A DNA stretch of 64,000 bases from Cristatella mucedo (lineage: Eukaryota; Bryozoa; Phylactolaemata; Cristatellidae): positions 686,501 to 750,500 of the forward strand of contig WPIO01000098.1 of NCBI GenBank assembly GCA_009760855.2, written 5' to 3'. The position numbers and the translations under genes are program-made. This document shows positions 9,671 through 57,240 of this stretch, one piece after another (position 1 is the first letter of the stretch; each line of letters starts with the position of its first letter). Below the pieces are notes generated by a model. That model made no database searches. It had not been told where the DNA came from and worked only from the letters and a program-made list of their open reading frames with translations.

Positions 9671-9889
9671 TCATAAAAGATGCCTCCTCGCAAAGATTGC
9701 CCAATCGCAGCTATTGCAAGCACTTTTCAATGCCCGGTGCCACTGAGATACGTCGCATTGCGTAATCTTCTCCCTCCCACTCTAGTCAAGCCCGCATGCC
9801 GGCAGTCTCGGCGTAGCCTCAGAACTGGCTAGGCAGCAGGCCAGCAGCCGAACAGTAGCGGCTGTAAGTCTCTTCCTGCCAAGCAGTTT

Positions 9890-10802
9890 ATGTCGGTTGC
9901 CCCGTCGGGCGTACATATCGACAACCGGATCGTCAGCCTGGCAATCGGCTCGCTGGGCTCAGCTCGCCGTCCGTCAGCGCGCACGCCCGTCGAGCACGCT
10001 AGTCCTAGGCTCCGAGACGTCCAAAACGTCCAAAGCGTCCAAAATTATGCGCGTTCAAGAGGCCCATTGCTCTCATTCCGAGTGCGCGGCGGCAACACCG
10101 CGGTCCGCCCCCCTCCTCCCAGCTTGTTGTCACGCAGCCGGCCGATGCTCCAGCTACCGCATTTCGGTCAGCGTTAACCGGGGCGTGTGCGAAGGGATCG
10201 AGGACGAGTGCAAGACGCGCGCTGCAGACAACCGCATCTAAAGCTGATGCAGGTGACTAGGAGTGCGTGTGCCTTCTGTCGCCTTTGCGCACGCTCGCCC
10301 ACGCAGCAGTGAATGGGTGCGGGCGGCGCGCACTGGGCTGCGGCCGCGGCGCGCGGATGCAGGCTTCGCTTGTCCACACCCTCGCCCAGTAATGTAGCAG
10401 CAGTCTGATGCCGCAGTCGCATCTCGTACTGACGCGCGAGAACGCGTTCGTGCGTGCCGAATCTTAGCACGAGCACGCTTTCAGCTCTCGCCGCGCACGC
10501 TCGAAAAGCGCGCCGGATACCGGACGTGCCCGCCATTGGATACCGGCGCCCCGCTCCAAGCTCGGCCGGCGTACGTAAGCGAGCCCCGGACGGCCCCACC
10601 CCCATGCGAGTGAGACGTTCAGCGTGCATCGGGTACGAAGCGGTGCGCCGCCGCATAGCGGATGCAGTGCGGCCGCAGCGTCTGCGCAGAAATGGCATGA
10701 GGGTTCAGGCCGCGACCGACCGGCGGGCGGACGGAAGTGAGTGGGTGTCGGCCGCTGATGACGACTCGCCGCGGCCAACGCTAGTGCTAGTGCCGTCTGG
10801 AA

Positions 10803-10850
<48 letters not shown>

Positions 10851-11230
10851 GAGCCCATTAGCATTAGCGCTCACATTGCCCAGTCAGAGTGCGCTGCTGC
10901 GCCTGCTCGCTTTGGCGATCGAGGCTCTGCCGCTGGTTCTGCCAGTCATCTGCCCATCCAGCAAAGGCGAGAGTCTCAGCTTCCAGCGATCTATAGGGTC
11001 ACAGCCGTATGGCGGGCGGCGGCTGTATCGCCGCGGAGTTCACTCCGGCGGCGACTGCTCGCGGCTCGACGGCGGGCGACGCGAACACTCGACGTTTCGC
11101 GCGCGCGCGGCGTCGCTGTGCCCGCTGGCCGGCCGCGGCCGGTGCGGTCTGCTTGTGCGGTGCGCCGAGTTGCATGGCACGCTCGCGGCGTTGGTCGTTC
11201 ATCGAGCCGGCTAGGAGCTCGTAGTGGCCG
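9890..11230. other. CpG-rich T block, copy A
   Basis: Dense in CG dinucleotides and NotI-like GCGGCCGC-type stretches, unlike its surroundings. Open frames of up to 174 codons occur on both strands here, as expected in GC-rich DNA with few stop codons; they are Arg/Ala-rich, overlap in antisense, and are not conserved as protein in copies B-D. The block ends with ATTTACGACAAATAAA, which contains a canonical poly(A) signal. It could be a CpG-island promoter or an unmethylated repeat; neither is shown. Confidence 0.6.
10811..10846. repeat. (GA)n microsatellite inside T block
   Basis: About 18 GA repeats. At the equivalent place in unit 2 (14823-14829) only about three repeats are present before the shared CCCATTA, so the expansion is specific to this copy. 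Confidence 0.97.
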
Positions 11231-11579
11231 TGAAGCAAAATGACCGGCACTGTTTATATTTACGACAAATAAACACGTTTAAGGACATCTTGGCCGCTTT
11301 GGGTTTAGAATTGATAACGTAGCTGTTTGAGGTTGTTAGTGTCCACGTTGACGTGTTCGATTATAGTGGCATGCCACGATTTTGCATTTTTTCACATTGC
11401 GGTTTTAGATTTAGATTTTGTTGTTTTTGGTTTATTGTTAACTCGTAGTAGGGAAAAACTGTATGCAGGAAATATTTCTCAAAATGCAGACATTAGAGCA
11501 AAAACAGACAGACGCTGGTGACCGAGCAATGCCAACGATACTACCCGCGTCTCAAGAAGCATCACAGTCAAGGTATCCC

Positions 11580-11870
11580 TCTCTGACCGAGGATACTGCA
11601 GATATGGATGCTCAGTAAGCAGGCCCAGATTAGCCCAACACTCTGCCGCCGAGTTTCTTTTGCAGCGGAAGCTTAAAGCGTTGTCCGCCTCATCGTCTGC
11701 AGGTCTTTCAGCCCAGAGAGCCAGTACTAGCCGAAAGCCAAGGCTTTACAGTCGCCTGCTTTTCCTCGCATACTAAAGTGCAGGTACCTGTATTGCATGT
11801 AGGTGTGCAGGGTGCAGGCACGTGCTGTCTTGACGCTCCAGCGTGCCGCCGGGGCTGCATCGGCGGTCCA
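11580..11870. repeat. V segment, diverged relative of 26600-26971
   Basis: 11640-11790 aligns by eye with 26790-26910: both carry a GCCGCCGAGTT motif, a CAGT(A)CTAG-like stretch, GCCAAGGCTT/GCCAAAGCTT and a GCATAC/GCATGC end. On the minus strand, the frame that is open at 26575-27009 is broken here by indels and a TAG. It lies between unit 1 and unit 2. Confidence 0.45.
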
Positions 11871-12504
11871 ACCCATTCGAGCAGCTCGGATGGCTAAGTA
11901 ATTACCAGCAAGTCCGGTTGACGTTCAGTGCTGCTTGGAATTTCCTGCTCTTCGCTCATGGCGATATTATGTCTGGAGCCGTTTTCCACCACGGGGTCGG
12001 TACGGCGTGAGAAACTGGAGGAGGATTTATTCAAGAGCACCCTGCAATCAATTACGCACATGTATGGCGCATAGTAGTGGCCGACTCAGTGAGCTCGCTG
12101 CCGGTTCGGCCAGCAGGTGGCCAGCATCTCAGTGTGGAACTTTGGCCTTGATGCCTCCCTCCCTCGCTCCCCCAAACGCCTAGGTCGAGTCTTGAGCAGC
12201 CATCATCCAAATCAATTCAGCAATCGTACGTGTTGTTTACCGGCTGCTTATTCTAACACTAAATGCCCACTGCTGCTTGGTCGGCCGTGTTCAAATGCTC
12301 ATCGGTGAGGATGGACCAGCATTTCCATTTTCAGAAGCAAGCTGATGAAATGCCAAACACAAGCCAGCGTAGGAAATCGGCTAGTGAGAAAGGGGATCGG
12401 GTCGGATCTGCCTGGCTCATCTCCGTGAAGGAACTACTCTGATTGACAGTCTACTATAGTTCTGAATCTGCCGACTGCATGAGCAGAAAAAAGCTGGCTG
12501 GAAA

Positions 12505-12570
12505 CGTAGTGCCCCACCAGGCCTTTCCCACAGTTAGTCCTTGGTTAGTACCCCCACCAAGCCTTTACAA
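12505..12570 (+). repeat. M minisatellite (~40 bp), 1-2 units
   Basis: One and a half units of the pattern CAAGCCTTTCCCACAGTCAG / ACCTTGGTTAGTACCCCCAC, seen in longer form at 19685-19995 and 21590-21870. Confidence 0.6.
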
Positions 12571-13698
12571 TGGTCAGATTGCTTTGTATTCTGGCTTAGC
12601 CGATTTAGCGCTTCTATTCTTTCTCTGCCAGCTTGCAGCTGGCTATCCGGGCAAGCGCCTAGGCTCCAGAAGGGGGTGGGTCAGCACGCTGTGCTCATGG
12701 CAGACGATTGCGGCCACGCTTCAGCAGGCCACAAATCTGGCTTCGCTGTGGTGGGCATCTTAAACAGGGTGCATTGAGTGGGCGTTGCGTGCTATTGAAC
12801 GTTCGACCATGGCAGTTGACCAGGCAGAGCAGCAGTAAAGTTGTTTTAAATTGCAGCAGGCTTACCACGGCCGAAGAGCAGTTACAAAATAGTCGTCTGT
12901 GGAGGCTCGATTGCTCTAGCTTGCTTCGTTTTGGCAGACGTGTGTATCAAGCGATTTGCTAGCATCAGTAGGGCCCATATCTTGCTTGTGGGTCGGGCAC
13001 CCTTTGGAAGTGAACATGTAGCCATATCTCGCTCGAGGAACACCAAGTCCCCATGCAGGCAAGCAAGGGTGTGCAGTCCGTCTCTGAACATCAAACTATT
13101 GTCGCATGCACTTGGCTATGCTTCAAGTTCGGCATGCTGTGTAATCTTCGGAAATAAACCTATGCTCTCCTCACCACTCAAAACCACAAGCATGTATCCC
13201 GCAGATACAGCAGAGTTCCATGTAACACAGCATTTGTGACTGTGTATGCTCACAAGGTTACTTCTGAACTTAGTTGAGTCCTGCAACACTCAGCATGTAT
13301 TGAGCAAAGTATTTGTCTTGCTAACGGTCTCGTTAGTGAAGAGCTAGCCTCAAGCATCGTTGCATTTTCACGATTGTGGAGATTGTGTCAACTATTCCAG
13401 CAGCATTCTACAGCAGCACTAGAGCAAACGATCTCTGGCAGAAAACGGTGGCGCTCGTGGTGCTAGCGCTATCGCTTGAGCATGGCACTGGCTAAAGTTG
13501 GCTTTGGCCTGCCGCCACTAGCTAGTCCTGCATGCGACGAAACGACTGACACGCAGGCTGCGGCCTCGGCCTCTGTATCTAGCAGCCACAAGCCAGAGAG
13601 GGATAGCGCCAGCAATGCAGCAGCCTGGACGAGGGGAGGAAACAGTGGATGCTTCCTACTTTCGAAGATTGCCCATCGCAGTCATTTAAAGAAGTACT

Positions 13699-13855
13699 AG
13701 CTGATTAAACAGCCTCTTTTGTGTAGCGGCAGAAGAGCCTTTGGGGTTATCACCACCGCTTGCAGCAGCTAAAAGGATTGCTCACTTAAGAACTTGATCC
13801 CACTAACTTGGTGCTCGGGTAGATGAAAAGCAACCGCCTTACACAGTGTGCCTTT
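13699..13855 (-). mobile_element. SINE2 copy at S/T junction (filled site)
   Basis: The 3' hairpin appears on plus as AGCTGATTAAACAGCC; the body is GGTTATCACCACCGCTTGCA; the tRNA-like head ends in CAGTGTGCC. It is inserted between gcccatcgcagtcattt and aagcgcatccgatgagcgg. The corresponding places in unit 1 (about 9705-9745), unit 3b (about 22970-23005) and unit 4 (about 29555-29590) are uninterrupted, so this is a real insertion into one paralogue. Confidence 0.88.
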
Positions 13856-13869
13856 GTGTCTAACAAGCG

Positions 13870-15420
13870 CATCCGATGAGCGGTGTGACTGAGACGTGCG
13901 GTATTGCAAAAGACTATCCCCGTCCCATTCTAGTCAGCCGGCCCGCAGTCTCGATATAGCCTTGGAAGATGATAGTAGCAAGACAGCAGCCGGCCTGTAT
14001 GGGGCTCCTATTCAAGTCCTGCCATGTAGCTTATGTGTCTCGATTGTCCATCAGACCTCCAGCCCAGCGTCCTGATAGCTAGAACAAGCTTGCTGTCCAC
14101 AGCTGCAGAAACCCGGCGTACTCGTTCAAGTCTCTCATTCCTAGCCGGGCGGGTACCATTTGCCACCTAGCCCGCCGATCCCTCAGCTGTCCTGCCTCCA
14201 GCGCCGTTACCTGGGACGCGTGCGGAGAGCAGATAAAGGACTCGTGCAACAGACAACCGAATCTCGTACTGACGCAGGAGATTAGGAATGCGTGTGGCTG
14301 TCGCTGCCTTTCCGCATGGACGCTAGCACAGCAAGGAATGGGCGTGGTAGGAACGCCTTGGTCCGCGACCAGCAGATGCAGCCGTCGATTGCCTACCCTC
14401 TCGCCCACTCTCCGAACAGCACTTTGATGCCTCGATGGCATCACGAGCTGTAGCTGAAGCCGCTAGTGCTATCGCACGAGCGGAATCGAATCGAGAGCAC
14501 GTTTTCAGCTCGCGAGACCAGGGCTCTGCAAAAGGGCACCAGAAAGCACAGGCTGCCGCCATTTGATACCGGCGCCGGCACGAAGCAGTGCCGCCTTCCA
14601 TTTTAGCACCGCTGCGAGTGCGCAGCTCAGCGTGCTTTGGGATGGTTTGAAGCTGCTGGTCTCAGCCCCCGAGTGGATGCGGCAGCAGAGGCATGTGCGT
14701 GGAAATGGCACGATGGTTTATGCCGCGACCGATCGGCGGGCGGATGGAAGTGGGTGGTTGTTGGCCACTAATGAGGGCTCACCGCGGCTTGCGCTAGCTC
14801 ACGTTGCCCCAAAACACGAGCGGAGAGAGCAAGCCCATTAAAGGTACGATATCTCAAGTCAGACTGCGTCTCTGCTTTTCAGGTAGCCTCCGCCGTGGGT
14901 TCTGGCAGCCAGCTGCATGCCTAACAAAGGCTAGTCTCTGATGAAAGCGAGCTGTAGGGTAAGAGCCATCTGGTGGGTGGCTGTAGAAGTTGTTAGCGGG
15001 CGGATGGCTGGGGGCCGGTTACTGTGCCACGCACTGGTTGACAGCTGAGCCGAGGGCCGGCCACGTGCGACTGAGTGCACCACACCGCTCTGATAGCTAG
15101 CTCCTGCGGTAGCTTCTCGCGGCTCGACGGGGGCGGAGGCGCAAATAGACGAAGCTTCACGCGACTCGTGCGAGGCGTCACAAGCTTGGTCCCAAGAGGC
15201 CGCCGCGGCCGGCAGGGCGAGTCAGAGCGCCGAGCCGCTGTGCACGCTCACAGTGCCATTGGTTGAACGAGCTAGCTCACTTATTTCTTCGGGCAGAGCT
15301 CCAGCAGTGGTCTACAAATGCGATCCCCGGTGCTTGTTATATTTACGACATACGAATGTGTTTAAGGATGTCTCGGCCGGTTTGGGTTTAGGATTTTGGG
15401 TTAACTGCTTAGGGGTTAAC
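13870..15420. other. T block, copy B (CpG-decayed)
   Basis: Parallels copy A from the S/T junction through the ATTTACGACA end, but many CG positions of copy A read TG or CA here (for example TCTCGTACTGACGCAGGAG against TCTCGTACTGACGCGCGAG). The AATAAA of copies A and D reads ATACGAAT here. The short Arg-rich frames are not conserved. 15381-15422 carries GGGTTTAGG/TTAGGGG stretches. Confidence 0.65.
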
Positions 15421-15699: not shown

Positions 15700-17010
15700 G
15701 CGGCATGCTACGGGCAGTGTGCCCATAGCCGGCCGTGAGGTGGCTCTACGAACTAACATGGCTGCATTTGCTTGCCTCGCAGCATATGAATTTGGGGACC
15801 AGAGAGCAGCTTTCGGCTGATCGGAATCGGATGAGCTGCAACCGGCTGCTGAACCTCTATTGCAGGTGATCGAGCTCATTAGCGAAGGCTCGAGAATGTG
15901 CAGCAGCTGCCGGAGGCATCGCGAGCTCGGCGCCCGAGCTCCTGCTGCTGGTGAAATGGAGCTCGCTGTCGGCGAAAGGCCATTCTCGGCCGACGCCCAC
16001 CCTTGCACATCTACATTTTTCATCGATTGCCGTAGACACAGAGCCGGTGCACCCACAAATTATTATCCAGAACATGGTGTGAGTGTAGGGCCTAGTGAAC
16101 TGTTGCCGCGAGTGAATGAGCAGAGCACGGACCACCAGTAAACGGGCCGGGAACTTTAGGCTGCAAATATTATCCGCAGCCGGGTGCCTAAGCACTTCTG
16201 TGACAATCCCTTTTCCTCTAAACTAATGGGACTAAAAACCAGTATAAAGGCTGCACAGAAAAACGATTGAGACACTCTCCCTCGCTTACTAGCAACTGAG
16301 TGGCAAATATTGTTTTAAAAAAACGTAAGACAACACTAACAAAAGTGATGGCATTCGTGCATTGGAAAAACAAGCAATGTGACTGCTGCTAGCCGAGCGT
16401 TCAACTTCATCATGTGATGCTCTAGCCTATCAGCTTTGCAGCTTGCTCTTGGGGAAAAATAATGCGAACAGGTCAATAAACGATTGCCGTCCAGTTGCTG
16501 AAATGGGTAAGCGCTTATATCAAGCGTGGTTGGCCCTGCTCCTGCATATTTCTGCTATATGGAGTCTGTAGTATCTGAAATCCAGATGCCACTTTCTTGA
16601 AACTAACGCTTGAAAAAATAAAACCGCTCATCAATGCAGTTTTCTGCGCTTTAGCCGCTGGGGTCATTAAAGAACTTTTTCCACGGCTACTGCAAATGTA
16701 AGTCTTGACCGACTAAGCAGCCCTATAAGTTTTGCGACCTTAGTCGTGTACTCGAGTCTTTCGATGGGTACACTTTTTTCACACTACCGACGTGGTCTGA
16801 GCAGGTTAGGCAACTTTCCACTTATTAAAACTTCGAGCTCCAGGTGGCCTTATCCATGCCTATCTTCCTGCGCTTCTAGTCACTTTCTAGCCATTGGTGC
16901 CACCTACGGCCACTATATTTCTTCTACCTTTTACTTACGTGAAGCCAATAGGTAAGGCAAATAGGTAAGACTCACTTTTATTACAGGCACAGGTTACAGC
17001 GTAAAAAAAC
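15700..17010. other. Unassigned stretch between composite units
   Basis: Two overlapping minus-strand frames (112 and 119 codons, 15697-16195) are opposed by a 93-codon plus-strand frame. None has a recognisable domain. 16200-17000 is AT-richer and featureless. Confidence 0.4.
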
Positions 17011-17011
17011 A

Positions 17012-17175
17012 CTGGCTAATTTAGCAGTACATTTTTGTAGAGCAACGGAGGAGCCTTTACGACCATTGCCACCACTAGCAGCTGAAATAAAAGATCGTAA
17101 GATGCCTGATTGGAACCCACGACCTCGGGACTGAGGGCTTGAAAAGCAACCACCTTACCTAGCGTACCATCTTGA
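17012..17175 (-). mobile_element. SINE2 copy beside block P
   Basis: Well-preserved head: on plus, GGAACCCACGACCTCGGGAC, then GGCTTGAAAAGCAACCACC and TTACCTAGCG. The 3' end is degraded (CTGGCTAATTTAGCAG). Its head directly joins the P-left sequence at 17176, as at 20492 and 30425, so it is probably an inherited component of the composite repeat. Confidence 0.85.
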
Positions 17176-17999
17176 CTGCCCTCGGGAGTTGGCCCAACAG
17201 AGCAGAGCCATAGATTTCGAAATTGACTGCACATAGGTGCGATATCCTGTGTAAATGGCAGGCAGTAATGTTGCATGTAAGTGAACGCTTACAAGAGCAG
17301 GCGCGTGTTCTCATGCAGCTCCAGTATACAATCATAGCTGCGCCGGCTGTTCAATGCGTTTGAGCAACTCGAATAGCTATTTAATTAACAGGGCATCTGC
17401 ACAGACGCTCCCTACTTCATGGATTTGACTGCCTCTCGTTCAAGGCCATGATAGGTCTGGAGCCGTTTTTCACTGTGTCAGACATGGCCTGAGGAACTAC
17501 AGAAGGTTTTCTCCGAGAAGTTCCGATAATCAATTACATAAGCGTATTAGCCAGTAAGCTGGGCAATCTTGCGTTGCAGCCAACAGATGGCAAGCTTTCA
17601 GTGTGGCATTGAGGACGAGTTGGGCCGCCAAAGAAGCCGGAAGAGTATTCAGCTGCCATCAGCCGAATCAGCTCGGCAATCGCACCCAGTTCATGGCCCA
17701 CCCATGGCAGCACTCAATGCACCCTACTATTGGGTCGGCCGTTTTGCAATGACCGTTGGTCAGGATTAAATGCTGTCTCCATTTTCAAAATCAAGCTGGG
17801 AAAAATAGCCAACCGAACCAAAGACATTCGGCACAATGAGGCTGGGTGGAGAGTGATTTGCAGCGACGACCACCCTTGCATATCTTCCACTCTGGTTGGT
17901 AGGCTCGTTATCGTTCTGCTTCTGCCGAGTGTTTAAGCAGAACCAGGCTTGCTGGCTGGCAGTACACAAATGGAAGACTAGAAAACCAGCCTTTAGAAT

Positions 18000-19400
18000 T
18001 GCAAGACGACGGCATAGTAGCATCAACAGGAATGGCTGGTGGCTGCCAACGCCGCAGCAGCTGCAGCAGACGAGACAGAGGTAGCTGCAGCAAACCAGCA
18101 GCACTATAGAGAAAGTAATGGTGACAGCAGCAAATAAAGTTGCGGTCATACCAATGCAGCTGCTGACACAGCAAACACAGTGGCAGTGGCATTAAATGCA
18201 GCAGTACGAGCAGAGATGTTGGTGATTACGGAGGCAGTTGTGATGATGGTGTAAGAAGTGATGATTCCGGCAGAGGCTGTGAAATGAGTGGTATCAGCAC
18301 AAGCAGCAGTGAAGGTCGATGCAGCAGCAGCAGAATCAGCGAAGGCCACATCAGAAAAGCATGCAGGAAGCAAGGCAGCAGCAGCACCAAATCCTGCTGC
18401 AGATGGAATTACGTCATCCATCTAAGTGACAGCAGCAGCTGCACGGATAGTATTGGAAGTAACACCGGCAGCTGCAGTGGCTGGAGCAGTGGCAGCACAA
18501 GGGTCATCGTGACACCAGCAAGAATCACAGAGACGGTGGCAAGTGCCACAACTGCAGCAGAAAGGATGAAGGCAGCAACAGGGGCGGCGGTAGCAAAAAG
18601 AAATTGGGAGCAGCATCAAGAACTGCAATGGCCATCACATCACAGTGGTCACAGTGGCAGCTGAAGCGGTGGAAGCTGCGTTGACAGAATCAACACTGGC
18701 AGAGATTAAATCAATCGAGCTGCACGGGTAGTGGAGATTATAGCAGCCGTAGTGATGGAGTTGTGCAAGCATTGACGAGGCAGCGGCAGCTTTAAAATGA
18801 GAGGCAGCCCTACAAGCAGCAGTGGGAGGAGTCACAAAGCTGTCAGGAATTCACGATGATGGCTCAGTAGCGGAAGCAGCAGCGGAATAACAGCAGCAGC
18901 CGTAGTAGCTACAGAAGGTACGAAAACAGCCGCAGCACCAAAGGGAAATCGGTTGCAGCAGCAGCAACTGCGGTGTCAGTCATACCACACTAGCTGCAGC
19001 CGAATCAGAAAACATCGGAAGCAGCATTGAGAGCAGCACCACTAGCAGATAAGGAGGCACTTTGAGCTGCATGGGTGTTGGTCACTATATCATCCTTAGT
19101 GGTGGGGTCATACGAGCAGTGACAATGCTAGCAGAGGCTGTAAAATGACAGGCAGCAGCTGAAGAAGCAGCTGAACAAGACACGGTACCAGCAGAAGCAG
19201 TTAAGACTACATCCGCAAAAAAGGCAAGAGGTAATGAAGCAGCATCAGCAACAACTCCTGCTGCTGCATCAATTGAAGCAGCCGTCCAAGTTAGAGTTAC
19301 CGCAGCAGCAACAGGACTGTTAAAGCTGGCAGTGACAACTGCAGCTTCAGTGGTAGAAACGGCAGCAGCAGCCACAGCAGCACATGGTCAACCATGGCAG
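18000..19400 (+). repeat. A block: degenerate GCA-triplet array
   Basis: Rich in GCAGCA, GCAGTG, GCAACA and similar triplets, keeping the same triplet phase for hundreds of bases (for example 18175-18540) despite in-phase TAA and TGA. Plus-frame products would be Ala/Val/Thr-rich, and antisense frames also Ala/Thr-rich. A longer motif (GCTGTGAAATGA/GCTGTAAAATGA) recurs near 18278, 18795 and 19137, so larger segments were duplicated. It is more likely a decayed triplet repeat than a gene; a pseudogene of an Ala-rich repeat protein is the alternative. Confidence 0.65.
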
Positions 19401-19684
19401 ATGCAGATACAGTTATGTGTGAGAGAATGTAATCGTACTGGCTCGTCTGCCCTCAGAAGGAGCAACCAAGTGTCAGAATACAAATGTCTATACTCTACAA
19501 AAAATAAAGTGATCAGAAACAGCCTCATTTGTGGCCCCTTTCTACATAAGTCATGAAATGGCTGGAAAGAAGTTGAAGGCATCGCAGAGTGGAGACTGCG
19601 TTGCACTAGGGAAGGAATCCTCAAATAGTAGGCCCCACGATGGACTGACTAGCTGCAAAGCGATAAACGAGTCGAGTTCGGCAT

Positions 19685-19995
19685 TTAGTCTAACCAACCC
19701 AACGCCCCCTCGCCCCGTCAGACCTTTGGTAGCATTTTAACCGAGCCTTTACCACTGTCAGACCTTGGGTAGTGCCTACATCAAGCCTTTCCCACGTTTG
19801 GCAATTCCGAAATGCCCACATCAAGATTTTTTACAGTAAGATCTCCGTAGCACGTAATCGAAAACTTTCCCACGGTCAGACCTGTGATAACGCCACCACC
19901 AAGTCTTTACTATGGGCTGACCTCCCACAACGCCCCCCCCCGAAGCCGTTCCCACAGTCAAACCTTTACTAGTGGCCCCACCTACCCTTTCTCAC
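19685..19995 (+). repeat. M minisatellite (~40-bp unit), about 7 units
   Basis: Tandem units of 36-42 bp around the pattern AAGCCTTTCCCACGGTCAGA then CCTTTGGTAGTGCCCCCACC. Units differ by scattered substitutions and small indels. One unit contains a C8 run near 19934. A shorter second patch lies at 20205-20285. Confidence 0.75.
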
Positions 19996-20384
19996 GGTCA
20001 AACTGCTTTGTGGTCCTGTGTCGAATTAGCCCCTTTTCGCTTTTTTCGATTAAACGGAGCAGGCGGCCCGGGCAAGACAGGTGGAGAATGCGGTGCACTA
20101 GAGAAGGAACCCGCAAACAGTAGTTCCCACGATGAACTGGCCAGCGTGTGAAGCACTAAATGAGTCCAAGTTCGACAGTGAACCTAACCAACCCTATGCC
20201 GACCCCCGTCTGACCTTCAGTAGCACCTTAATGAAGCGTTTCCCACAGTCAGACCTCCGGCAATGCCCCCAACGAGGCATCACTACCGGCAGACTGATTC
20301 GCATTGGGAGCACATTTTTAAATCACACGCCGTTCCCTCGGACAGCAGTAAGGGTTGCCATTCCATGCCTGTGAATTCGCTGCT

Positions 20385-20492
20385 CTTGCCACAGCTAGCG
20401 TGCGCAGTAAAGGACAGCTTGCTGCAGGACTCGAGCATACGATCTCAGGACTGAGGTCCTGAAAAGCAACTGCCTTACCTAGTGTGCCATCG
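20385..20492 (-). mobile_element. SINE2 copy beside block P, 3' end missing
   Basis: Keeps the head and B-box side (on plus GGACTCGAGCATACGATCTC, then CTGAAAAGCAACTGCCTTACC and TAGTGTGCCATC). The 3' hairpin and much of the body are lost. It is joined to P-left as at 17175 and 30425. Confidence 0.8.
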
Positions 20493-21589
20493 CAGAGCAG
20501 AACTGAGCACTAGCTTGCGAAATTGACCCCCCAAACTGGAGATGAGCATATAAATTGCCGGCAGCCGTGTTGCATGTTCATGCATACAACAGCAGCCACG
20601 TGCAGTCTCTAAGCCACAGAGAACAGCCAGGGTTGCAGAGGCTGGTCGACGTATTCACGTGCAGATCGGATGGCTACGTAATTACGAGCACGTAAGATAG
20701 ACGTCAGCACTGCCTGGAATTTCCTGCCCCTTGCTCACGGCCATATTAGGTCTGGAGCCATTTTTAACGGGGTCAGGTACGGCATGAAAAAATGGAATAA
20801 GGTTTTTCCCAGAATGGCGAGCAATGAATTACACAAGTGCGTTGCTTCATAGTCGCTAACTAGACTTTCTTTCGGTGCTACAAGAAACGTGGCTAGCATG
20901 TCAGTGAGGAATGTAGGGCGGGTCGTGTCACAGACTCTACAGCAGCTGCTGCTACCCGAATCAATAGAGGCAATCGCAGGCTGTTCACTGCATGCTTATT
21001 CTCGCACTCAATGCAAAATCTACTGTCGGGTCGGCAATGTTAAAGCGATTACTTGTCAATATTTATTACTATGTTCATTTACAAAAGCAAGCTCAGAAAA
21101 TACAGAACGGCAGCACAGAAAACTGAAGAGGGTCAAGTGGGTCGAGTGACATTGCTGTGTCTCTAAAGCTTCCACTCTGGTCGGTAGCCTCGCGATTAAT
21201 CTGCATTCAACGACTGTTTCAGCCGAAACAGGCTAGCTGGCTAGCTGATAGTCCTGGAAGCTAAACGAGGCAACGATATCCCCTAAGCTTAGGCCACACG
21301 TTCCGGTTGGTTTCTTTGAACACGCATGACAGCTGTAACGCATGCACCATGCCACGTCACCGTGCACAATCAGTGATTTTTCTAGTACCATACACCGGGC
21401 GGAGGAGGAGAAGGAGGGAGAACACTAACCCAGAACACGATGCCAATCTCTGCCGAGCGTCCGTTGATTTATGGCATGCTGCTCGAAGCCTCGGCTGCAT
21501 GGCTATATGGAATCAGTCAATTGGTTGATAAATAAATTCAATGAAATATGATTGCACAGGCAGAGACTGCTCCCTCAAGTACAGCTACT

Positions 21590-21870
21590 CCGGCCATCTG
21601 TTTATCCAGCCTTTTCCACCCCTCAACGTAAGACCTTCGGCAGCACCTTAGCTGAGCTTTCCCATGGTCAGACCTTGGGTAGTGCCTCCCTTAGCCTTCT
21701 CTAAGGTTGGACCTCCCGCAATGGCCCCACCAAGCTTTTCCTCGGTCGGACCTTTGGCAGCACGTCAACGAAGCCTTTCCCGTTGTCGGACTTCCACAAT
21801 ACCCCACAAAGCTGTTCCCACAGGCATTTCTTCGCTGGTGCCCCACCTAGCCTTACCCACGGTCAAACTG
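21590..21870 (+). repeat. M minisatellite (~40-bp unit), about 7 units
   Basis: Seven consecutive units can be set under one another (for example AGCTTTCCCATGGTCAGACC then TTGGGTAGTGCCTCCC). Same family as 19685-19995. Confidence 0.75.
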
Positions 21871-23569: not shown

Positions 23570-23720
23570 GGAAGCCTCGTTTTGTGTAGTCGAAAGAAAG
23601 CCTTTGTGGCATTCGCACGTTGCTTCGTCGCATTCGCAAAAACCAGACTGGCCGGCTGCACGTTTAAAACCCTACGACCTGAGCAGTCTAAAAGTGCGAG
23701 CACGTCACGCCGGGCTTGAG
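23570..23720 (-). mobile_element. Decayed SINE2 copy
   Basis: The plus sequence AAGCCTCGTTTTGTGTAGTC followed by GAAAGCCTTTGTGGC matches the 3' half of SINE2. The tRNA-like side is represented only weakly by AAACCCTACGACCTGAG. Confidence 0.5.
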
Positions 23721-23805
23721 TCCCCACGCAATTAAAGCTGCATGCTGTGCCGCTGCATGGCAGATCGGGAGCATTGTCGCAGCTCACGTAGCTCTTCTCT
23801 CGGCC

Positions 23806-24188: not shown

Positions 24189-24278
<90 letters not shown>

Positions 24279-41585: not shown

Positions 41586-41597
41586 TGTGAGATATGA

Positions 41598-44819: not shown

Positions 44820-46280
44820 CAATTACCTATAGATTGATCTAGGCACCACCGTGTTTTGGTCTCTATTCAAATTTTGGCAGTTCGGATAAGGCCCGTCTAA
44901 CAATATGCTTTAATCTTTTAATTTCTTCTTACTTTTTAATAATTTTTTACTTAAAACCATATGTTAACTTAGGTCAGATTGGTACATGATCATTTGCATG
45001 CAGAGAGAGACAAGTTCATCATGATAACTTAAAATCATGCAAATAAAAATTATAAGTATCAGTTAAATTTTCAGTGTGCAACACCGCAATGGGTACACTG
45101 GAATATATATTTCTTTACTTGTAGAAGAGCATTAATGGCTATCACAAGACTTTGCACTAAGTAATACAGAATTTCCCCATTGGGAAAACAAATCTCGACT
45201 CCATCTGAAATGTGAGCACAGAGCTGCACTTTGAGATAGTCCTATAGAAATGCGAAACAACTGAAAACCAATTATGATTTTAAGATTTGAACGTACACAT
45301 TTGTTATCAGAAGCTGTAGAGTCAACCAAACCTGGCTAAGTATGCAGATTTTGAAGTTGCACTAAGAAATCCACATAAAAGTGTGCATGCAACGAGTTGT
45401 GTTCACCGCTTGACTTAATTCATTCTTATCATTCTTTCAATAGATTTAATTTGTGTACCTGTCTCCTTTAGTAACTGTCTCTGAGTAGCCTGAAGTGACA
45501 CTTAGTGTTGGATCACGTTAAAGGTGCTTAAAATAGTTCAGCTTAGGAATATTGAAGCACAACTATTCATTTGTATCCACAGGCTCGGGAGAAATCAATC
45601 AGGTCTTGGCCGACTTTGTATTTCAGGCACTATGAAATCAACAAGTTACGAAGGACTTCTCGTCACCTGCATGGGCAGATTTAGTAGCTTCACTGATTGA
45701 CATGAGCCTTCCCACTGACATTATTAATTTATATTTACACAAATATAAAGTGCCACGAAAGATTTCAAGTTCTCCCAGGGAACATCCGTGGATTCTATGT
45801 CTAGACGCTGACCTTCTTGGACAAGCAGTCCAGATCTTCCATTTAGGTTAACCATCTACAATGAAATGAGCGACAACCTGTTCCTGCTAACCGGCAGCAG
45901 AGCCTTAGGTCACACTGGTAAAGGTAGTCTATGCTCTAAAACTTATAGACTATTGGCAACCAAAGCTTTGTCTTTACAAAGGCAAGAAAGTGAGACTCGC
46001 TTTTACATTTCCCACACGTCTACTCACTGGTGCTGATTGTGGCACATGCTGTCTAGCCGTGCAGAGCTGCTGCATCCATGCAGCTCACTTCCTCGGCCAC
46101 CCTCTAAGCTCAGCTGTGTATCTTCCTTTTTTTGCGTCTAGAAATAAAGCTAGTTGGCCACAGTATGCATACCGAATGTCGCTTAGTTCAGGCTTTGAGT
46201 ACACCACAAAAACCTTCCTACTTCACACCGACTTATTCTTTGAAGGAATTGCAAGTTTTTGGCAGAGGAACATTACAATC
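44820..46280. other. Unassigned AT-rich stretch
   Basis: Nothing identifiable except a LINE1-like terminus remnant at 45738-45782 (AAAGTGCCACGAAAGATTTC then AAGTTCTCCCAGGG) without an ATT tail after it. Confidence 0.4.
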
Positions 46281-46284
46281 ATTC

Positions 46285-47880
46285 AAAGACTTTATCAATG
46301 CCGGGTTAAATCGACTGCATAATACTGACTCATTTCCAGGAAGCTTGCATAAATAGCAAGGTCATAGGCCTCGGCGGTAGGAGTCCAGAACGGGGCATGC
46401 ATACCCGTTTAAATTAGTGATTTGGCTGCAGAAACGCGTTTTCCATGCGCACTCATCTTCTCCCCAAAAAACAACCGAACGCGAGCCAACAGTGAGTGCG
46501 GGTGGATAGTTGTGACCAGTAGCGCTTGCACACCAACGTGCTTGTGCACAAGCTGAGCACGCACACATGGTTGGAAAAGCCGGTGATCCAGTTTCGTACG
46601 AAGGGTGAGCAAGCAGGCCGCTTTGTCGGTTGCCTGTACAGGCGGCACATACAGGCTATTGTTCGCTCGAGGAATAATGCCCAGCGTTGGTGGTTGCAAT
46701 GGCTTAGTCGGACCCGTAGTGCTTGCGTGCCCGAATGCAGCTCAACAGAATACATACTTTCATACACCTGTACAAGCCGTTGAGCTCGCACATCACGCGA
46801 TCAAGGTAAGCAAGCAGTGTGGGTACGTGCACGCGAGTGCGAACGCTGTGCGGCCCTGCCGGCTGCACTATCGGCTTGGTGCGCTGGACAATTTCTCAGT
46901 TGCCCGTGCAGATGTAGTGAAATAGATAATGGTCACGGCTTCAAGTTCACGACAAAAAAGAGTTCGTGCTTATATAACTTATTCTTATTTGTAAATTTGG
47001 GGCAGAAATGCATTGCATTTATTCACCAATGCGATCAGTACAGGGTTAAAAGGCTTGTACAAATACTGACCCCTTTACAGGAAGCATTCCAAGATACCAC
47101 GGACAGGTAGGTGTCCTGAACGGGGCATAAATAGCTCCTAAAAATAATCATGGACCTCAAAATGCCTTTTCCAACGTGCACTCTCCCATTCTCATGGAAA
47201 ACACCGGACGAGAGCTGGGAGCGGCTGCGGCTGGATACCTTGGCATAGTTGAACCCTGAGCTCTCTCGCCAGTCCACACGGTGGTGCGCAAGCTGCGCAC
47301 GCAGGTTGAGCATGAAGCTTGCGCACGCCGGTTGCGCACGCCGGTTGCGCACGCGGGTGCACAAGCAGTGCGAGCCAGTTGCCCAACCGTTCGCTAGCCA
47401 GACGGGGTTGAGGAACCTTCCTGAAATCCATAGAGGTTGCGTGCGCACACGTGCGGGTGAGCAAGCAGTGAGCATGGGTGGAGATGCGCCAGCTTCGCCG
47501 TGCGGGCACACCTGCTGGTACGATAGCTGCGAGTGCAAAATTGTGCCTTTGGATGAACACGCAGGGCGTTTTTTTCGGTTGTCCCCCCCCCACAGGCGTT
47601 TATCGAGGTCAGGGGTCAGGGCCGGCTCAAGCGACAATACCCAACCGAAGCTCGTCGAGTTTGAGTCTGCGAGGTAGAGCAAAATAAGAAGTCTCCTGCT
47701 TTGATGGTGTCATCTATTTAGTGTCGGCCGAGCCTCGGCCGCTTAGCAAGCTAGCAGCAGGCTGTATACATTATACTGAGGCTGCAGTCGACAAATAGCC
47801 ATTGGTCAACCGGTAAGTGCCGCCAGCAACGCCAGTAAGCTAGCATCCGGTGCTGCTTGAGGCATGCTGCGTAGTCTGAC
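46285..47880 (+). repeat. Tandem pair of a ~740-bp repeat
   Basis: 46285 onward and 47025 onward run in parallel: CCGGGTTAAATCGACTGCAT / CAGGGTTAAAAGGCTTGTAC; ACTGACTCATTTCCAGGAAGC / ACTGACCCCTTTACAGGAAGC (one base over the printed parts omitted); GTCCAGAACGGGGCATGCAT / GTCCTGAACGGGGCATAAAT; and a shared GCGCAC-rich middle. The second copy continues to TGTCGGCCGAGCCTCGGCCG and GGTCAACCGGTAAGTGCCG. A third copy is at 58565-59540. The 215-codon minus-strand frame and antisense 142-codon frame over it are composition-driven. Confidence 0.65.
47320..47361. repeat. 13-bp tandem TTGCGCACGCCGG, 3 units
   Basis: Three direct units in the GC-rich middle of the ~740-bp repeat; related GCGCAAGCTGCGCACGC lies just before. 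Confidence 0.85.
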
Positions 47881-50999: not shown

Positions 51000-53230
51000 T
51001 CAATGCACAATATATTTATGCTGCACAGGTCTAATCTCAATCAGCTCCGAGGCCTTGTGCAGTCAAAGCCGTATGAAGATATCGAGCTGCTACTTCTGCA
51101 AGTACTGGCTATTCGACTGGTCAAAATTTTATTAAAAAAAATATTGAATGATACATGTGGCTATCAGCTTATTAGCCTCTAAGTTGCCACATCAAACGAG
51201 TCACTTTGATAGTGAATCGATTACTCAGCACGACGAACCGTAATTTAACAGCATTAACCGTCGTTATTTCACAGGAAAAAAAAGCAGGCTGAGCTTTGCC
51301 AGGTGCAGTTTTACAGTATTTTTACAAAGTGCCACGTTAGGGCTGCCAGAAAAGGCACGATGATGCCAGGTGTAAGTCGTAGTGCTGTGCGCGTGGCATG
51401 ACCGCCATGGTGCCCTGCCCTAGCCTGACAGGCAGGAGTGCATAATGCTTCGGCAGCCGATTCCTCCCCGCTGATTGGGTGGAGGCATGAGTGAATGGCC
51501 ACTCGGTCATGTGAAATTTCCTGGCCGGCAAGCTTGTTTAGCTCTCGAAGCTGTGAGCAGACGTGTCGTCCTTCTCCAGCTCTCACAGTGCACTGCACAA
51601 AGAGAAAATAGCCTCCTGACTTCATCGCGTTGATTACATCTTGTGGAGATGCCAGTGGCTTCGTTTTCATCGGTGCAAGCTGCACTGCATACCTGCTCGT
51701 CAACATTCCGAGCGACCAAGAGCACACATTGACCCTCACAGTGCTGACTGCAGCAACGCTGACAGCTGTTATGTTCCAGAGCGTAGTTCAAACTGTGTTT
51801 GTGTATGACCAAGTGTCTATGTGTGCAAATGCGAGTGTGCGTGCTTGTGCGCATGCATGTGTTTTGGAGGGTAAAGGTTCGCTTGTGCATTTGTGCACAA
51901 GCGTGTGACTGCAAGCCCCAACATGTACACGGGTCCAATATGTGGTGAATGTGTGGGCACGATTGTATTCATGTGCATGAGCATGCAAGCAAATATACTT
52001 GTAAGTTCGACTAGCTGCGTTTTTCTGCTTGCTTGAATGAGATCAGTGTGTGCATGTGCTTTGGCAATCATGTGTGCATGCCAGGGGCGGGTAAAGTGTG
52101 TGGGCGCTAGTGTGGGTCTCCGTATGAGCGAAGCATGAGGCTGTATGCATGTGTACACGTGCATGCATATGCAAGCGTGCAGGTTTGTGAAAGTGTGCAA
52201 GCCTGAATGCACATGGGCGTGTTTGTCTGAGGGAGAGTGAATTTTTATTCATAAATCTGTGCTTCCGTGAGTGCCGACGTGTGTGCTACCGTGTTATTAT
52301 TTATTAGTACTAGAAACTTTGAAAACCGAGGAAAGGCTGCCGGTAGACTGAACTAGCTCTCTTAGTCAACCACCGAACTCTCGCTGTCTCTAACCTATAT
52401 ATAAGGAAATTATTAAGCTCATTATCTTATTACATCACAACAATTCAATTATTTAATTTTATTTAAAATAAATAAAACCCGGTCACATTATGTTCTTTGT
52501 TTTCACGAATTTCTTTTTCGCATAGAAATTTTAACTGAAGCTTTATATTTTATCCCAAAAATATACAGGTTATTCGTGTAACACCGTAAAAACGTCTACT
52601 GCGGCATGCGATTAGCATCTACCTTGGTGATTGTTGGTGGCACTGTGACGGGCCTGCTTGCCTTGAGGCCTGGCTGCCGTGCAACAGAGCACTCAAAAAG
52701 TAATGTCCAGTGGTGGCACCTACTGAAGCATGTTCCTCGAAGCACCGATGGGTCTTTAGTTGCCCAACTGAAAGAAAAAGTCCTCGAAAGCTTAAAAAGG
52801 CCGACATTGCAGATTAACCTAGCCCGTGCTCACACAAGGTTAACTGTGCTAACCACTTATGCCCAGCGTGGGGGCACTCTCTGAGAGCTGGGCCAATGGT
52901 GACGACCACAGTAGGGTTAATTCCGGTTTCAATTGCCTCCGGCACAGTGAACTTGCATCGGTTGCACCGGTGTACATTGCAAATTCACGATTACTTTATA
53001 CGGCACAAGTTGCTGACAAGGGGTCACATAAATACAGGAAAAGGTGTTCTGCCTCGGCGTTTACTAAGGTGTGCCAGACTAAATGGTATCCACTTTGCAA
53101 TCGCAATCTTGATAAGCACACATGTCGTGAAACCCTGTGTATAGACTCTCTTCAATTCAATTGCAGTGCACGTGTACACAGATTAGTTTCTCCTGGGCTC
53201 ATCTGTATTAAGGCAACCTAGGTCAGGAAA
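51000..53230. other. Unassigned stretch with TG-rich tract
   Basis: No gene recognised. A 92-codon frame at 52606-52884 begins with a hydrophobic stretch resembling a signal peptide but has no known domain. 52270-52570 is AT-rich. Confidence 0.4.
51790..52230. repeat. Degenerate TG/GCATGTG tract
   Basis: About 440 bp of interrupted GTGTGCATGTG sequence. The 131-codon His/Thr-rich minus-strand frame is low complexity. Confidence 0.75.
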
Positions 53231-53239
53231 ACGATGTAT

Positions 53240-53600
53240 GAAGTCAGTGCAGCAACATGCACAAGCAACTGCACTAGCGGCCTTAAGGTATACCCAGGCT
53301 GATATAAGCTCATCTGTTTCCAAAACAGATGCTATTAATTCATAAAGGCGAATAGACTAAGAAAACCATATCTTGACTACTCACCCGCGTGGGTCATGTT
53401 ATGTCTATTATGTAGTAGGTACCATTGGTGCATTGGCTGCTGCTGCTGATAGAAGCTGAAAAAGCGTCTGACAGAGTTTCCTCTCAGAGCTCGTGGCAGA
53501 TCTCAGAGCTCGTAGCAAATCGTAGCCTATGCTCGAGAGGCCCTGGTGAAGGTATGTCAAGCCTGAAACAAGTTCGTCCAAGATGTTGCCACACCTCATC
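53240..53600 (+). repeat. Dispersed repeat X, copy 1
   Basis: Shares with 57905-58235 the order TTAAGGTATACCC / TTTAGGTAAACCC, TTCCAAAACAGATGCTATT / TTCCAAAACCGTTGCTATT, GATAGAAGCTGAAAAAGCGT / GATAGAAGTTGACAAAGCAT, CTGACAGAGTTTCC / CTGACAGAGTTCCC, and GCCTGAAACAAGTTCGTCCA / GCCTGAACAAGTTCGTCCAA. Identity of the element is unknown. Confidence 0.75.
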
Positions 53601-53943
53601 ACAATTTTGGACAAGAGCAAAAGCAAAAGGCAAAGGAATTGGTAAAAATCTGAAACTGGCGTATCTGGATCAGTCGGGCCGCTTGACGATTACTATTGCG
53701 TCTGAAGTAAGAGGCTCATGGAAACCTAAATCTACCAGTGCACTAAATCCTGACGGATAGTCACCGGATGCTTGCTAACCCTCTTTATAGCTTAACACTC
53801 TATGCCCATTAAATGTTCTCAGGCTGCGTCGATTTCTTTTCCTTCTTTTCTCCTCCCTATTGATTTTCTCTCTCTCTCTATGTTTATCAAATCGTGTACG
53901 ATCTGTGATTTTGGGAACTCACGCCCCCACACATCACACCCAC

Positions 53944-55620
53944 AGTGTAACTCCGTCTGTAACTCCACAAAGTCATAAAGACTATGTGGGTGTTACGCAG
54001 GAGAGTTTTGTATAGCACACTCACAGCCTAAGCGGCTTTCGGTGCGCATTTGGTGGCCGACAAACTTTGCCTCACGCAACAAAGAGAAAGTGAGAAGCAT
54101 AGCAGAGTCAGGAGAGCAGATATGATAATGAGTAGCATGGAAGTAGCAGCTCAGGACCGCTGAAAAGGATCAGCCATAGTCGGTAGTAGGAGAGTAATTA
54201 TCGTTGCTTAAGAATTGTGGGCGCGAGTTCAGCATTCTAGGACCCCCAGAGCAAAAGCTTAAGTCGCCAACGGTCTCTAAGCAGAGGAATGGAACAGCTA
54301 ATTTATTTTCCACACAGGATCTAAGGACACGAACAGGGTGAAACTGGTGCAACAGTTCAGCTAGGTGCGAAGGAGCCAAGCCAAGGCAGGCCTTGTGGAT
54401 CACCGTAAAACATTTGCTCTGTATCCGTCGCTCAACCAGCATCAATCCTAGCTTTTTTAGTTAAGGAAACACGTAGTCAAACCTCAGCGACTTGAAGACT
54501 AGCCTTGCAGCCATATTCACAATCAACGGCAGTGGCCTAGTTGCTTTCTTTGGTAGCCCAACCAAAAGGGAATTACCATAATCAAGCTGAGAGAGAACGA
54601 AGGAGCTATTAGAATTGCTTGCAAGCCACAGTGGAAGACAGCTCCTAATCTTAGAGAGGGATCGGATGTGATGGCTAGCTGTAGAAGCAGTGTTCTGAAT
54701 GAAGATTTTAAAATTAAGGCAGCTGTCGAAAGCGACACCCCAACTTTGAGCAAGCGGTCATGGTCGCACAACAGCATCTCATAATCGAAGAGAAAGGCCT
54801 TTTAAACCAGCCACTCAAATGTCAAATGCTGAGAGTGCCCTATGAGCAGCAATCTGTTTTATCGTCATATAGTTTCAAGAAGTTTTCCGACATCCAGGAT
54901 CTAATATCGGCAAGGCAAGCAATCACTTACTCAGTTGCCGCAGCAGATTCCAACGGTTTAGGTGACACATACAGCCGAGTATCGTCAGCATAGAAGTAAT
55001 ATCCTATTCCATGGGCCTTAATGACTTTTCCCACAGATTGAGCATAAACGGTGAACGGTAAGGGACCGAGTTTGAACCCTTGAGAGACTCCGCAGGTAGC
55101 CGGTCTCGTGCATGAGAGCTGACCCCTTACACGAAACGGATTTATTACGATGAGGTAAGTACAATTTAAACCACGCCAGTGCTTCGTCTGCCAGACCGAT
55201 CGCTGTTCTCAATCGCTCAAGTAGAATATCGTGATCAGTGGTTTCGAAGGCAGCTGACACATCTAGCAGAGCTAGGGCAAGACATTTTTGACATCATTGC
55301 AATCTAGAATTAGGTTGTTACCAAAGAGGAGAGCAGTTTTAGTGGTGTGCCGCCTCTTAAACTCTGATTGAAATGCTTCTTACATTTCATTGTTTTCAAT
55401 AGGTTCATTCAAATATTTAGCAACAATTTTTGCAAGAATCTTTGACATGAAAGGAAAAATTGAAACTGGGCAAAATTTTTCAGTAACCTCTGTATCTAAT
55501 CCAGGCTTTTTAGGTATGGGTCTAAAGATTGCCGATTTGAAGGACTTAGGGACCACACCTTATCCCAAAGAAACATTACGAATCTCCATCAACTTGGGAC
55601 GTGATCGTCGCTCATCTTAA
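53944..55620 (-). mobile_element. LINE2-type non-LTR retrotransposon, longest copy, dead
   Basis: Minus strand: RT segments VVPKSFKSAIFRPIPKKPGL (about 55575-55515), CPVSIFPFMSKILAKIV, a TAA, EAFQSEFKRRHTTKTALL, a frameshift, LLDVSAAFETTDHDILLERL, another frameshift, GVSQGFKLGP, and an intact catalytic YADD at 54981-54992. The C-terminal part at 54445-54170 includes CLGLAPSHLAELL. The 3' end at 53944-53990 matches the (ACATT)n-tailed termini elsewhere. L2/CR1-clade by motif but distinct from LINE1. The whole 5' half (ORF1, endonuclease) is missing. Confidence 0.93.
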
Positions 55621-55849
55621 TATTAGCATGTCACAAGCTTTTTCACTCAGAAATATTGCCTTATAAGATCAACCTATGCCTAAAGATATGCGCATTTTAA
55701 ACTGATTTAAATATCAAGTACTACATGTCATATGGTATCATCGGTAACTCTACACAGGCCAAATGAATACGCGGACTTGATGCTCACGAGTTTTAGTTGT
55801 CCACAAAAAAGTAAATAGCTTTCTGCCCTACTAATATTTTCTAACCTAA

Positions 55850-57240
55850 CAGTATCAAAAGCAGAAAACGCTGTGGTAAACGTCGTGCAACCAGTTGCAG
55901 CAGAAGCAGCCATTTTGGGTCAGTGCCAAGGGCAGCAGCCGCAAAGGTGGTAGAGGCAGCCATCTTTGCGGCAGCAGCAGTTGGGGCACAGGGTGTCGCT
56001 GCAGTAAGAACTGAGACTACAGCACCCGCAGAACTAACACTAGTAAAGGTTTCGGTGGCGGGTGCTGAATTACAAGCATCAACTGCAGCAGTGGCAGCAG
56101 CATGGCAGCAGTGACAGCAGTAGCAGCTGAAGCGACCATAAGTAAAAGGGGACAATAAGAGGGGGACGCAGCAACATGGTCTGCAGTGATCGCAGCAGCT
56201 ATAGCAGCAGTTGCTCGAGCGGCTAAACCTCAAGCAGGACTTGGTGTGACGGTATTATGAATAGCGGACTTAACAGTGACAGTGGTGGGCAAAAAGCAGT
56301 GGCATAAGCAGCTGCAGGTGCAGTGACGGATGCAGTGGCAGCAATCAAGGTCAATCTAACAAAGCAGTGGCAGCGGTTATGGTCGCTTAAGCAAAGGTGG
56401 TTGCCTCAGCACCTATTACTGTCGCAGAGTTATTAGCGCAGGTAGTGCCAGTTGTAGCTACGGTGGAAGCAGCAGCAGTAGCAGCTGTGAACAGTGTAAA
56501 TAGCAGTAAGTGGCCGTAGCAGCAGCGACTAAAGCATGACTGAAAAAAGTGATACTAACTGCTCACCAGCAGCAGCAGCAGCAGCAGCAGCAGAGGGGAC
56601 AGTCAAGAAGTGGCAGCAGTAGCAGAAGCAGCAGAAGTAACCACTGCATCGGTGGCCATTGCAGTAGCCGTCAATGTAGCAGTAGCGGCAGCACCACGGA
56701 AAATGGTGGCACCAACGGATGCTGCTTGAGTAGCATGAGCGGCCGCAGCACAAGGATTAATCCTGGCCGTGGTCAATACAGAAGTGTGCGAGGGTGGAGG
56801 TAGCTTGACTACTCATAAAAAGCAAAGACCTAATCTCAGAAAGTTAGTAACTTCCTTCCTCAACAGAATGAAGCAAGGTGCAAGCTGCCTAATCAATGGC
56901 CACTTTCTATAAAGGCCACAAAAATGCTGGACAGAAGCAGAAGGGGTTGCAATGTGGAGAAGGCATAGCACTAGCAAAACCACCCTACAGCAGTAATACG
57001 TACGCCATCCTTGATTTGAAGCTATAAATGAGTCGAATTGGGCAGTGTCCAAACCAAGGCTTTCTCACAGTCAGACCATCAGCAGTGCCCCCACTAAGAA
57101 TTTCCCATGGTCAGACTGGTTCCTGGTCGTTTGCAAAATGGGCCACCGATTTCTCTGCCTGCCGGCAGCAGTGACCCAGGAAGGAATTAACAAGATGGTC
57201 AGGGGAGGGCATGGCAGTGAGCCTGACACCACCTAGGCCT
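55850..57240 (+). repeat. Composite repeat, unit 6 (A, spacer, M, N)
   Basis: A 55850-56800 (GCAGCAGCAG-rich, with a pure (CAG)n core near 56569-56593). Spacer 56925-57040 parallels 19540-19685 (GGAGAAGGCATAGCACTAGC / GGAGACTGCGTTGCACTAGG). M 57040-57125 (CTTTCTCACAGTCAGACC). N 57110-57240 (GGTTCCTGGTCGTTTGCAAA). P, Q, S and T are absent. Confidence 0.6.

Follow-up and report, generated by a model that had tools for sequence, protein, structure and literature searches.

A stretch of 64,000 nucleotides from the bryozoan Cristatella mucedo (the window; positions 686,501 to 750,500 of contig WPIO01000098.1, here C685, in a 572-Mb assembly of 688 contigs) contains a long series of repeated blocks, designated U, P, A (an array of the triplet GCA), N (a 40-60 bp minisatellite, termed M in an earlier sequence-only reading of the same DNA), Q, S and T, with V, W and W2 as additional direct blocks after A-N or Q in the right half (Table 1). 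Together with its continuation to the right of the window, this tract of about 75 kb represents a single noncoding unit of several kilobases in about ten old copies, arranged head to tail, that have diverged at about one third of their bases. The window has 49% G+C, with a fraction of 0.52 at 9.6-24.1 kb vs. 0.42 in both flanks, and neither a tRNA (ARAGORN) nor an Rfam match at gathering score was found in it.

Comparison of the window with itself by blastn, three simple-repeat tracts being masked, yielded 123 matches at E <= 1e-3, 100 of them direct and 23 inverted, while local dinucleotide shuffles gave none in ten of ten controls and the reversed window gave three short ones. The inverted matches fall in multi-copy sequences present in both orientations, which we take to be tails of an L2/CR1-type long interspersed nuclear element (LINE) and a family resembling short interspersed nuclear elements (SINE-like). 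Profiles of U, P, N, Q, S, T, V, W and W2 matched the forward strand only at E <= 0.01, looser cut-offs adding a few weak matches on the minus strand (E 0.2-8), and the triplet array reads GCA on the forward strand wherever it was scored. When the blocks are read as a cycle U-P-A-N-Q-S-T, 25 of the 28 successive steps are +1 or +2 in a list of 29 blocks that was assembled by hand, the cycle being chosen from the same data; none of 200,000 permutations reached this number, the maximum being 19 forward steps. The claim of the sequence-only reading that blocks are shared on one strand in near-constant order is thus borne out, and the self-comparison it had proposed shows off-diagonal matches without mixed orientation of the unit blocks at E <= 0.01.

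Table 1. Features of the array and associated elements (positions in the window; MITE, miniature inverted-repeat transposable element; C439, C679, C90 and C655 are other contigs of the assembly).
Feature	Position	Strand	Composition	Basis or remark
Unit 0 (partial)	9675..11331	+	S0 9675-10010, T0 10127-11331 (CpG-rich)	profile matches
T0, final ~100 bases	within 10127-11331		belong to palindromic MITE-like element	tail copies elsewhere
Unit 1	11563..15414	+	U1 11563-11775, P1 11774-12501, N1 12509-12655, Q1 12650-13684, S1 13826-14149, T1 14160-15414	profiles
Slow core of P, ~100 bp (in P1)	11918..12020	+		mean identity 0.762 over five P copies
Unit 2	17004..20305	+	SINE-like 17004-17181, P2 17252-17963, A2 GCA array 17951-19500, N2 repeats 19578-20305	
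Unit 3	20374..24629	+	SINE-like 20374-20492, P3 20551-21247, post-P 21127-21501, N3 21601-21941, Q3 21936-22967, S3 22932-23249, truncated T3 24394-24629	
Unit 4 (error-rich)	24759..30261	+	SINE-like 24759-24829, P4 24846-25336, post-P 25216-25593, U4 26702-26905, A4 27400-27950, Q4 28579-29567, S4 29532-29863, truncated T4a 29896-30261	cleaner copies in C439
Unit 4b	30297..31878	+	pre-P, P start (weak, 30509-30542), T4b 30593-31878 (CpG-rich)	also in C439
Unit 5 (error-rich)	33841..38364	+	U5 33841-34049, P5 34063-34831, A5 36451-37050, N5 37281-37389, Q5 37400-38364	
W blocks	46191..47860	+	W 46191-46617, W 46937-47357, W2 47601-47860	
V block V52	52666..53755	+		self-comparison and profile
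Right-hand unit	55801..60723	+	A 55801-56800, N 57047-57184, V 57235-58392, W 58501-58970, W2 59024-59522, Q fragment 60615-60723	
GCA arrays	61501-62000, 62351-62600, 63401-63950	+		N and V next, beyond window at 64.4 and 64.6 kb
Error-rich stretch	about 24100..41600			sharp edges; C439 comparison, three-way test
Palindromic AT-rich element forming T end	11226-11560			copies in C679, C90, C655
SINE-like family	2409-2571, 6389-6592, 13683-13861, 17004-17181, 20374-20492, 28323-28518, 33559-33723, 49470-49669	both		self-comparison

With regard to extent, the profile scan covered the window and 100 kb on each side (264 kb). The span first proposed for the array, 9675 to 57,240, is too short at its end; no block was found in the left 100 kb or in window positions 1-9,674. 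Right of the window, 11 further matches on the forward strand comprise N at 64,400, V at 64,595-65,749, W2 at 71,059 and 71,219, a Q piece at 72,559, N at 76,658, Q at 76,787-77,378, V at 78,041-78,889, W at 80,608 and W2 at 81,073 and 84,109, with no block beyond 84.2 kb. The composition is GCA-rich from about -4 to 4 kb, and the left edge of the array may therefore lie further out. Individual units are incomplete: P and N of unit 1 have no GCA array between them, and unit 2 is devoid of Q, S and T. A derivation of V and W from Q, S and T by far-reaching divergence was considered on the basis of a gap-lenient local alignment of the V copy at 57 kb (V57) with unit 1 (z 5.7, 30 shuffles) and was not upheld, since profile-profile comparison gave z <= 1.6 in 13 comparisons and the place ranked third of 178 in a scan of the window. 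By eye, a TATA-like motif following the word GAACGGGGC recurs in three W copies, at 46390, 47115 and 58710.

A second version of part of the locus is provided by contig C439 (1-35888; 35,888 bases), which is colinear with window positions 17,489-52,107 and in which the blocks of units 2-5 recur in unchanged order, so that unit order is documented in two sequences over 17.5-52.1 kb of the array. C439 is probably the other allele. It contains six stretches of 97-391 bases between matched pieces that are absent or nearly absent from the window, and at one place both versions have unmatched sequence (348 and 534 bases). Outside the error-rich stretch 0.7-0.8% of aligned bases differ, as would be normal for alleles, and the three long pieces show 77, 7 and 41 gap openings. 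Between about 24.1 and 41.5 kb, on the other hand, 6.8% and 8.9% of bases differ and 434 and 578 indel events occur; these account for 1,012 of 2,282 differences (44%), and 64% of them concern a single base pair. In a three-way test with other units as referee between window and C439 copies, private substitutions were higher in the window in all 14 comparisons (10 blocks, some used twice), for example 67:15 for Q4 judged by Q1, 105:25 for T4b by T0 and 89:21 for P5 by P1. Private indel bases were higher in the window in 13 of the 14, the exception being U4 (5 vs. 14), and two controls outside this poor stretch gave 2:1 and 4:1.

Since the window holds most of the private differences at about 24.1-41.5 kb, the stronger decay that units 4 and 5 show is largely an artefact, and the earlier statement that blocks were "lost or swollen in each" unit is in part a product of poor sequence in this interval. 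Its abrupt, step-like boundaries at about 24.1 and 41.5 kb fit an assembly gap filled with unpolished long reads. The idea that units 4 and 5 are older than the others, suggested by Q distances of K 0.67-1.17 from the window copies, was withdrawn because the window is the error-rich version, and an ancient divergent haplotype was rejected on account of the private differences of the window, the many indel events, mostly of 1 bp, and the sharp edges. As a practical lesson, two units appeared far more ancient than is the case because of a sharply bounded stretch of poor assembly sequence. Directly before this stretch lies a TC-rich tract of about 540 bases (23796-24352), perhaps the reason why the assembly broke there.

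Distances between units were calculated with C439 copies replacing the window copies of units 4 and 5 (among them P4c, P5c, Q4c and S4c). On this basis K was 0.45-0.58 for P (10 pairs), 0.49-0.66 for Q (6), 0.42-0.60 for S (6), 0.44-0.55 for T (3), 0.39-0.51 for U (3), 0.36-0.48 for W2 (3) and 0.22-0.56 for V (6). The tree of P is nearly a star, with internal branches of 0.014 and 0.036 vs. terminal ones of 0.22-0.30, as is that of four Q copies (one internal branch of 0.038 vs. terminals of 0.23-0.38); five Q copies over about 400 bases gave internal branches of 0.008 and 0.010. Tandem duplication left a trace in a shared junction: T3 and T4a are truncated at the identical position of T (386/387), and the T3-to-P4 junction aligns across the joint with the T4a-to-P4b junction over 619 bp (66.6%) into the SINE-like repeat and the start of P, a joint inherited by two units and therefore indicative of tandem duplication. 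In units 2, 3 and 4b, P is preceded at the equivalent position by a SINE-like repeat. LINE-tail copies from outside the poor stretch differ by 14-17% in three pairs, so that the array is older than those insertions.

In agreement with the sequence-only reading, no coding capacity became apparent. No consistent codon phase was found in 11 block pairs, two of which involve error-rich window copies (largest spread 0.317-0.422, P2-P3), and indels were multiples of three in 36 of 182 cases in these pairs. Among the best 60 matches of open reading frame (ORF) against ORF, interspersed repeats rank on top and between-unit matches are short. A tandem gene family with a reading frame conserved between copies is thus not apparent from comparison of the unit ORFs with each other, protein libraries not having been searched with them. 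The number of gaps per mismatch is 0.027-0.093 in clean pairs of P, Q, S and T, and the baseline from interspersed repeats is 0.041 (25 gaps and 609 mismatches in eight pairs outside the poor stretch) or 0.057 over all 13 pairs, five of which involve a copy from the poor stretch. Selection against indels was considered for Q1-Q3 (10 gaps, 0.028 per mismatch) and set aside, as gap counts of 8-21 were obtained in 12 simulations that assumed 0.05 indels per substitution.

We consider it likely, with a probability of roughly 0.7, that the locus is a single-locus, macrosatellite-like array whose homogenisation ended long ago and was followed by mostly neutral decay. A noncoding unit of several kb, U-P-A-N-Q-S-T, with A-N-(Q)-V-W in the right half, would have given rise to about ten head-to-tail copies at one locus. 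The triplet array and the minisatellite would already have resided within the ancestral unit and been duplicated along with it, and the SINE-like repeat before P in several units as well as the palindromic MITE-like tail of T would likewise have been copied. Copies may have been made and kept alike by unequal crossing-over or in a single amplification burst, and the near-equal distances among most P, Q, S and T copies suggest that exchange largely ceased at about one time. The copies would then have decayed as bases were substituted, small indels and deletions accumulated, A and N underwent slippage, and LINEs and SINEs inserted; at least one duplication, that of V (57 and 64 kb), came later. 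Nothing here points to a function for most of the unit, and T0 and T4b held on to their CpGs. Giant tandem repeats are usually found via near-identical copies, and copies about equally far apart such as these would show the aftermath of the end of homogenisation, with one sequence decaying in parallel several times at a single locus. They also suggest that the CpG-rich portions of such a unit may survive longer than the rest.

The multi-kilobase units found here head to tail in one orientation are what would be expected of a macrosatellite. Between clean copies of P, Q, S and T, however, 32-44% of sites differ, far from near-identity, and because the array lacks this homogeneity we withhold the label macrosatellite and speak of a decayed macrosatellite-like array. 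The human macrosatellites ZAV, SST1, TAF11-like and others are multi-kilobase head-to-tail arrays, noncoding or mostly so, at one or two places, with a reported 97-100% identity within an array and variable copy number; the ZAV unit of 5.3 kb has 60% GC, two CpG islands, microsatellites and pieces of long terminal repeat elements and LINEs (PMC3018141). The present array resembles them, e.g., ZAV, in unit size, single orientation, a CpG-rich part and internal repeats, and differs in that its clean copies are only about 60-70% identical. Mouse Dxz4 spans about 36 kb and has about seven units of 3.8-5.7 kb, which differ by somewhat more than 5%; it is similar in having an internal (there variable) tandem repeat in each unit of several kb, and its CTCF binding and expression have been demonstrated (PMC3491370). 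Large human tandem families with 90% homology on several chromosomes trapped interspersed elements in the amplified unit, and unit losses were ascribed to unequal crossing-over (PMC2588610); interspersed elements inside the unit and pieces lost from single copies are shared features, one locus and about 35% divergence are not. A narrow keyword search of titles in the open literature, not aimed at species or locus, returned no decayed array of this kind.

Several observations weigh against a single end of homogenisation followed by neutral decay. Past homogeneity of the array is not observed. K values of 0.57-1.03 for W (6 pairs) and 0.24-0.84 for N (28) do not fit a single date, some pairs are younger (V57 and the V copy at 64 kb, V64, K 0.22; post-P of units 3 and 4, K 0.33), and other trees are less star-like, with internal branches of 0.066 for S, 0.042 and 0.103 for the first part of T (five copies) and 0.168 for V. 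A slow core and a fast stretch in P together with CpG retention in T0 and T4b imply that decay was not wholly neutral. In addition, part of the right flank consists of undetermined bases (read as N) in which any blocks would be invisible, and the genome search reported below is insensitive below about 65% identity and covers Q1, T0 and V57 only.

The best-placed alternative is stepwise tandem duplication, in which units were copied singly and successively during a long period, without the array ever having been homogeneous. It would account for some nested structure, seen in the low distances of V57-V64 and of N2-N3 (0.28) and in the grouping of T3c with T4ac (support 0.95) and of S3 with S4c (support 0.87). 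The two V copies (57235-58392 and 64595-65749, the latter beyond the window) are 81% identical, and their duplication is clearly later than the rest of the array. However, internal branches are very short among the five P copies and among four or five copies of Q, which argues for nearly simultaneous separation, and we regard stepwise growth as unlikely.

A second alternative holds that the tandem units serve in regulation or are noncoding transcription units, that T is a CpG island in each of them and that selection still acts on them in part. The observed/expected ratio of CpG is 1.28 in T0, 1.22 in T4b (C439) and 0.93 in T1 vs. 0.61-0.75 in P4c, P5c, Q4c and S4c. CpG retention between T copies amounts to 0.498 (T0-T1), 0.511 (T0-T4b) and 0.39 (T1-T4b), and that of dinucleotides other than CG/GC to 0.43, 0.417 and 0.369, respectively, whereas in P, Q, S and V CpG is retained at 0.22-0.31 vs. 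0.39-0.47 for other dinucleotides. The CpGs of T0 and T4b thus decayed no faster than other dinucleotides, unlike those of the rest of the unit. However, T1-T4b exceeds its background just by 0.39 vs. 0.37, and GpC is retained in T even better than CpG (0.52-0.58), so that base composition may explain part of the effect; promoter use, open chromatin and biased conversion would be indistinguishable as causes here.

Regulatory units would also be consistent with the slow core of P, whose mean identity was reached in none of 1,000 one-rate simulations (their maxima averaging 0.698) and which is accompanied by a fast stretch beginning near 12,131-12,146 (p 0.001 and below), and with a slow island of 40 bp in V (53,449-53,489; p 0.002, at 100 bp p 0.029). 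On the other hand, no slow or fast island was detected relative to one-rate star simulations in Q, S and T (p 0.235-0.764), including T itself (p 0.24-0.52), in a test of modest power that relied on three copies each for Q and T and left out V64 and the Q copy at 76 kb (Q76). Consensus RNA folding likewise revealed no fold (lowest z -2.8 in 92 windows, 30 shuffles each), all four block means being slightly negative. Partly selected transcription or regulatory units therefore appear rather improbable. Equally doubtful is the related proposal that an old noncoding array has been kept as a multi-copy regulatory or boundary locus with a slow P core and, in several units, T islands that would have stayed unmethylated in the germline as the neighbouring sequence was depleted of CpG; if true, such a role would outlast the likeness among copies. 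In the P core, a motif which we take to be a CArG box is exact in P3 and P4c and absent in this form from P1, P2 and P5c, and with six sites in the window vs. about four expected by base counts it was dismissed as a candidate.

The sequence-only reading had offered a decayed macrosatellite, a tandemly duplicated locus or a giant non-autonomous element as explanations. The first two are supported by the single strand, the cyclic order, the shared junction and SINE-like repeat and the failure of the genome searches to find dispersed full copies; the third, several insertions of a giant mobile element at one place, is highly improbable. Long units without coding capacity and a T tail that is itself a dispersed palindromic element would suit it, but the single strand, the unit-to-unit junction and the searches of the whole genome with Q1, T0 and V57 stand against it. 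Q1 matched itself and C439, V57 matched itself and three further V copies of the array, and T0 matched itself, C439, the T1 tail and three places in C679, C90 and C655 that are similar to the last 50-70 bases of T0 only. No dispersed full copy was thus found with these three blocks, in a low-sensitivity search that recovered one locus plus C439 and missed Q3, 64% identical on the same contig, so that a remote second array may have escaped it. Dispersed copies in both orientations, as expected of a non-autonomous element, were accordingly not seen, either in this limited search or, at E <= 0.01, among the blocks within the 264 kb, and the unit has no defined ends. Inverted-repeat arms are present in the sequences that contain the three tail copies, and a weak palindrome is seen at the end of T0, hence the designation MITE-like; the T1 tail has no convincing palindrome. 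Repeated assembly of one sequence with errors, conceivable in view of the real error-rich stretch, can practically be dismissed, since C439 and the window are about 99% alike outside that stretch while units are about 35% apart, and the succession of units 2-5 recurs in C439.

As to the interspersed repeats, the SINE-like family has a tRNA-derived look by eye, for which ARAGORN and Rfam gave nothing. The assignment of the tail repeats to LINEs is based on a reverse transcriptase relationship in a protein search. An open LINE frame of 894 amino acids (L009:7103-9784, minus strand) has endonuclease/reverse transcriptase relatives, the nearest match being 72%, and its family looks recent, unlike the array.

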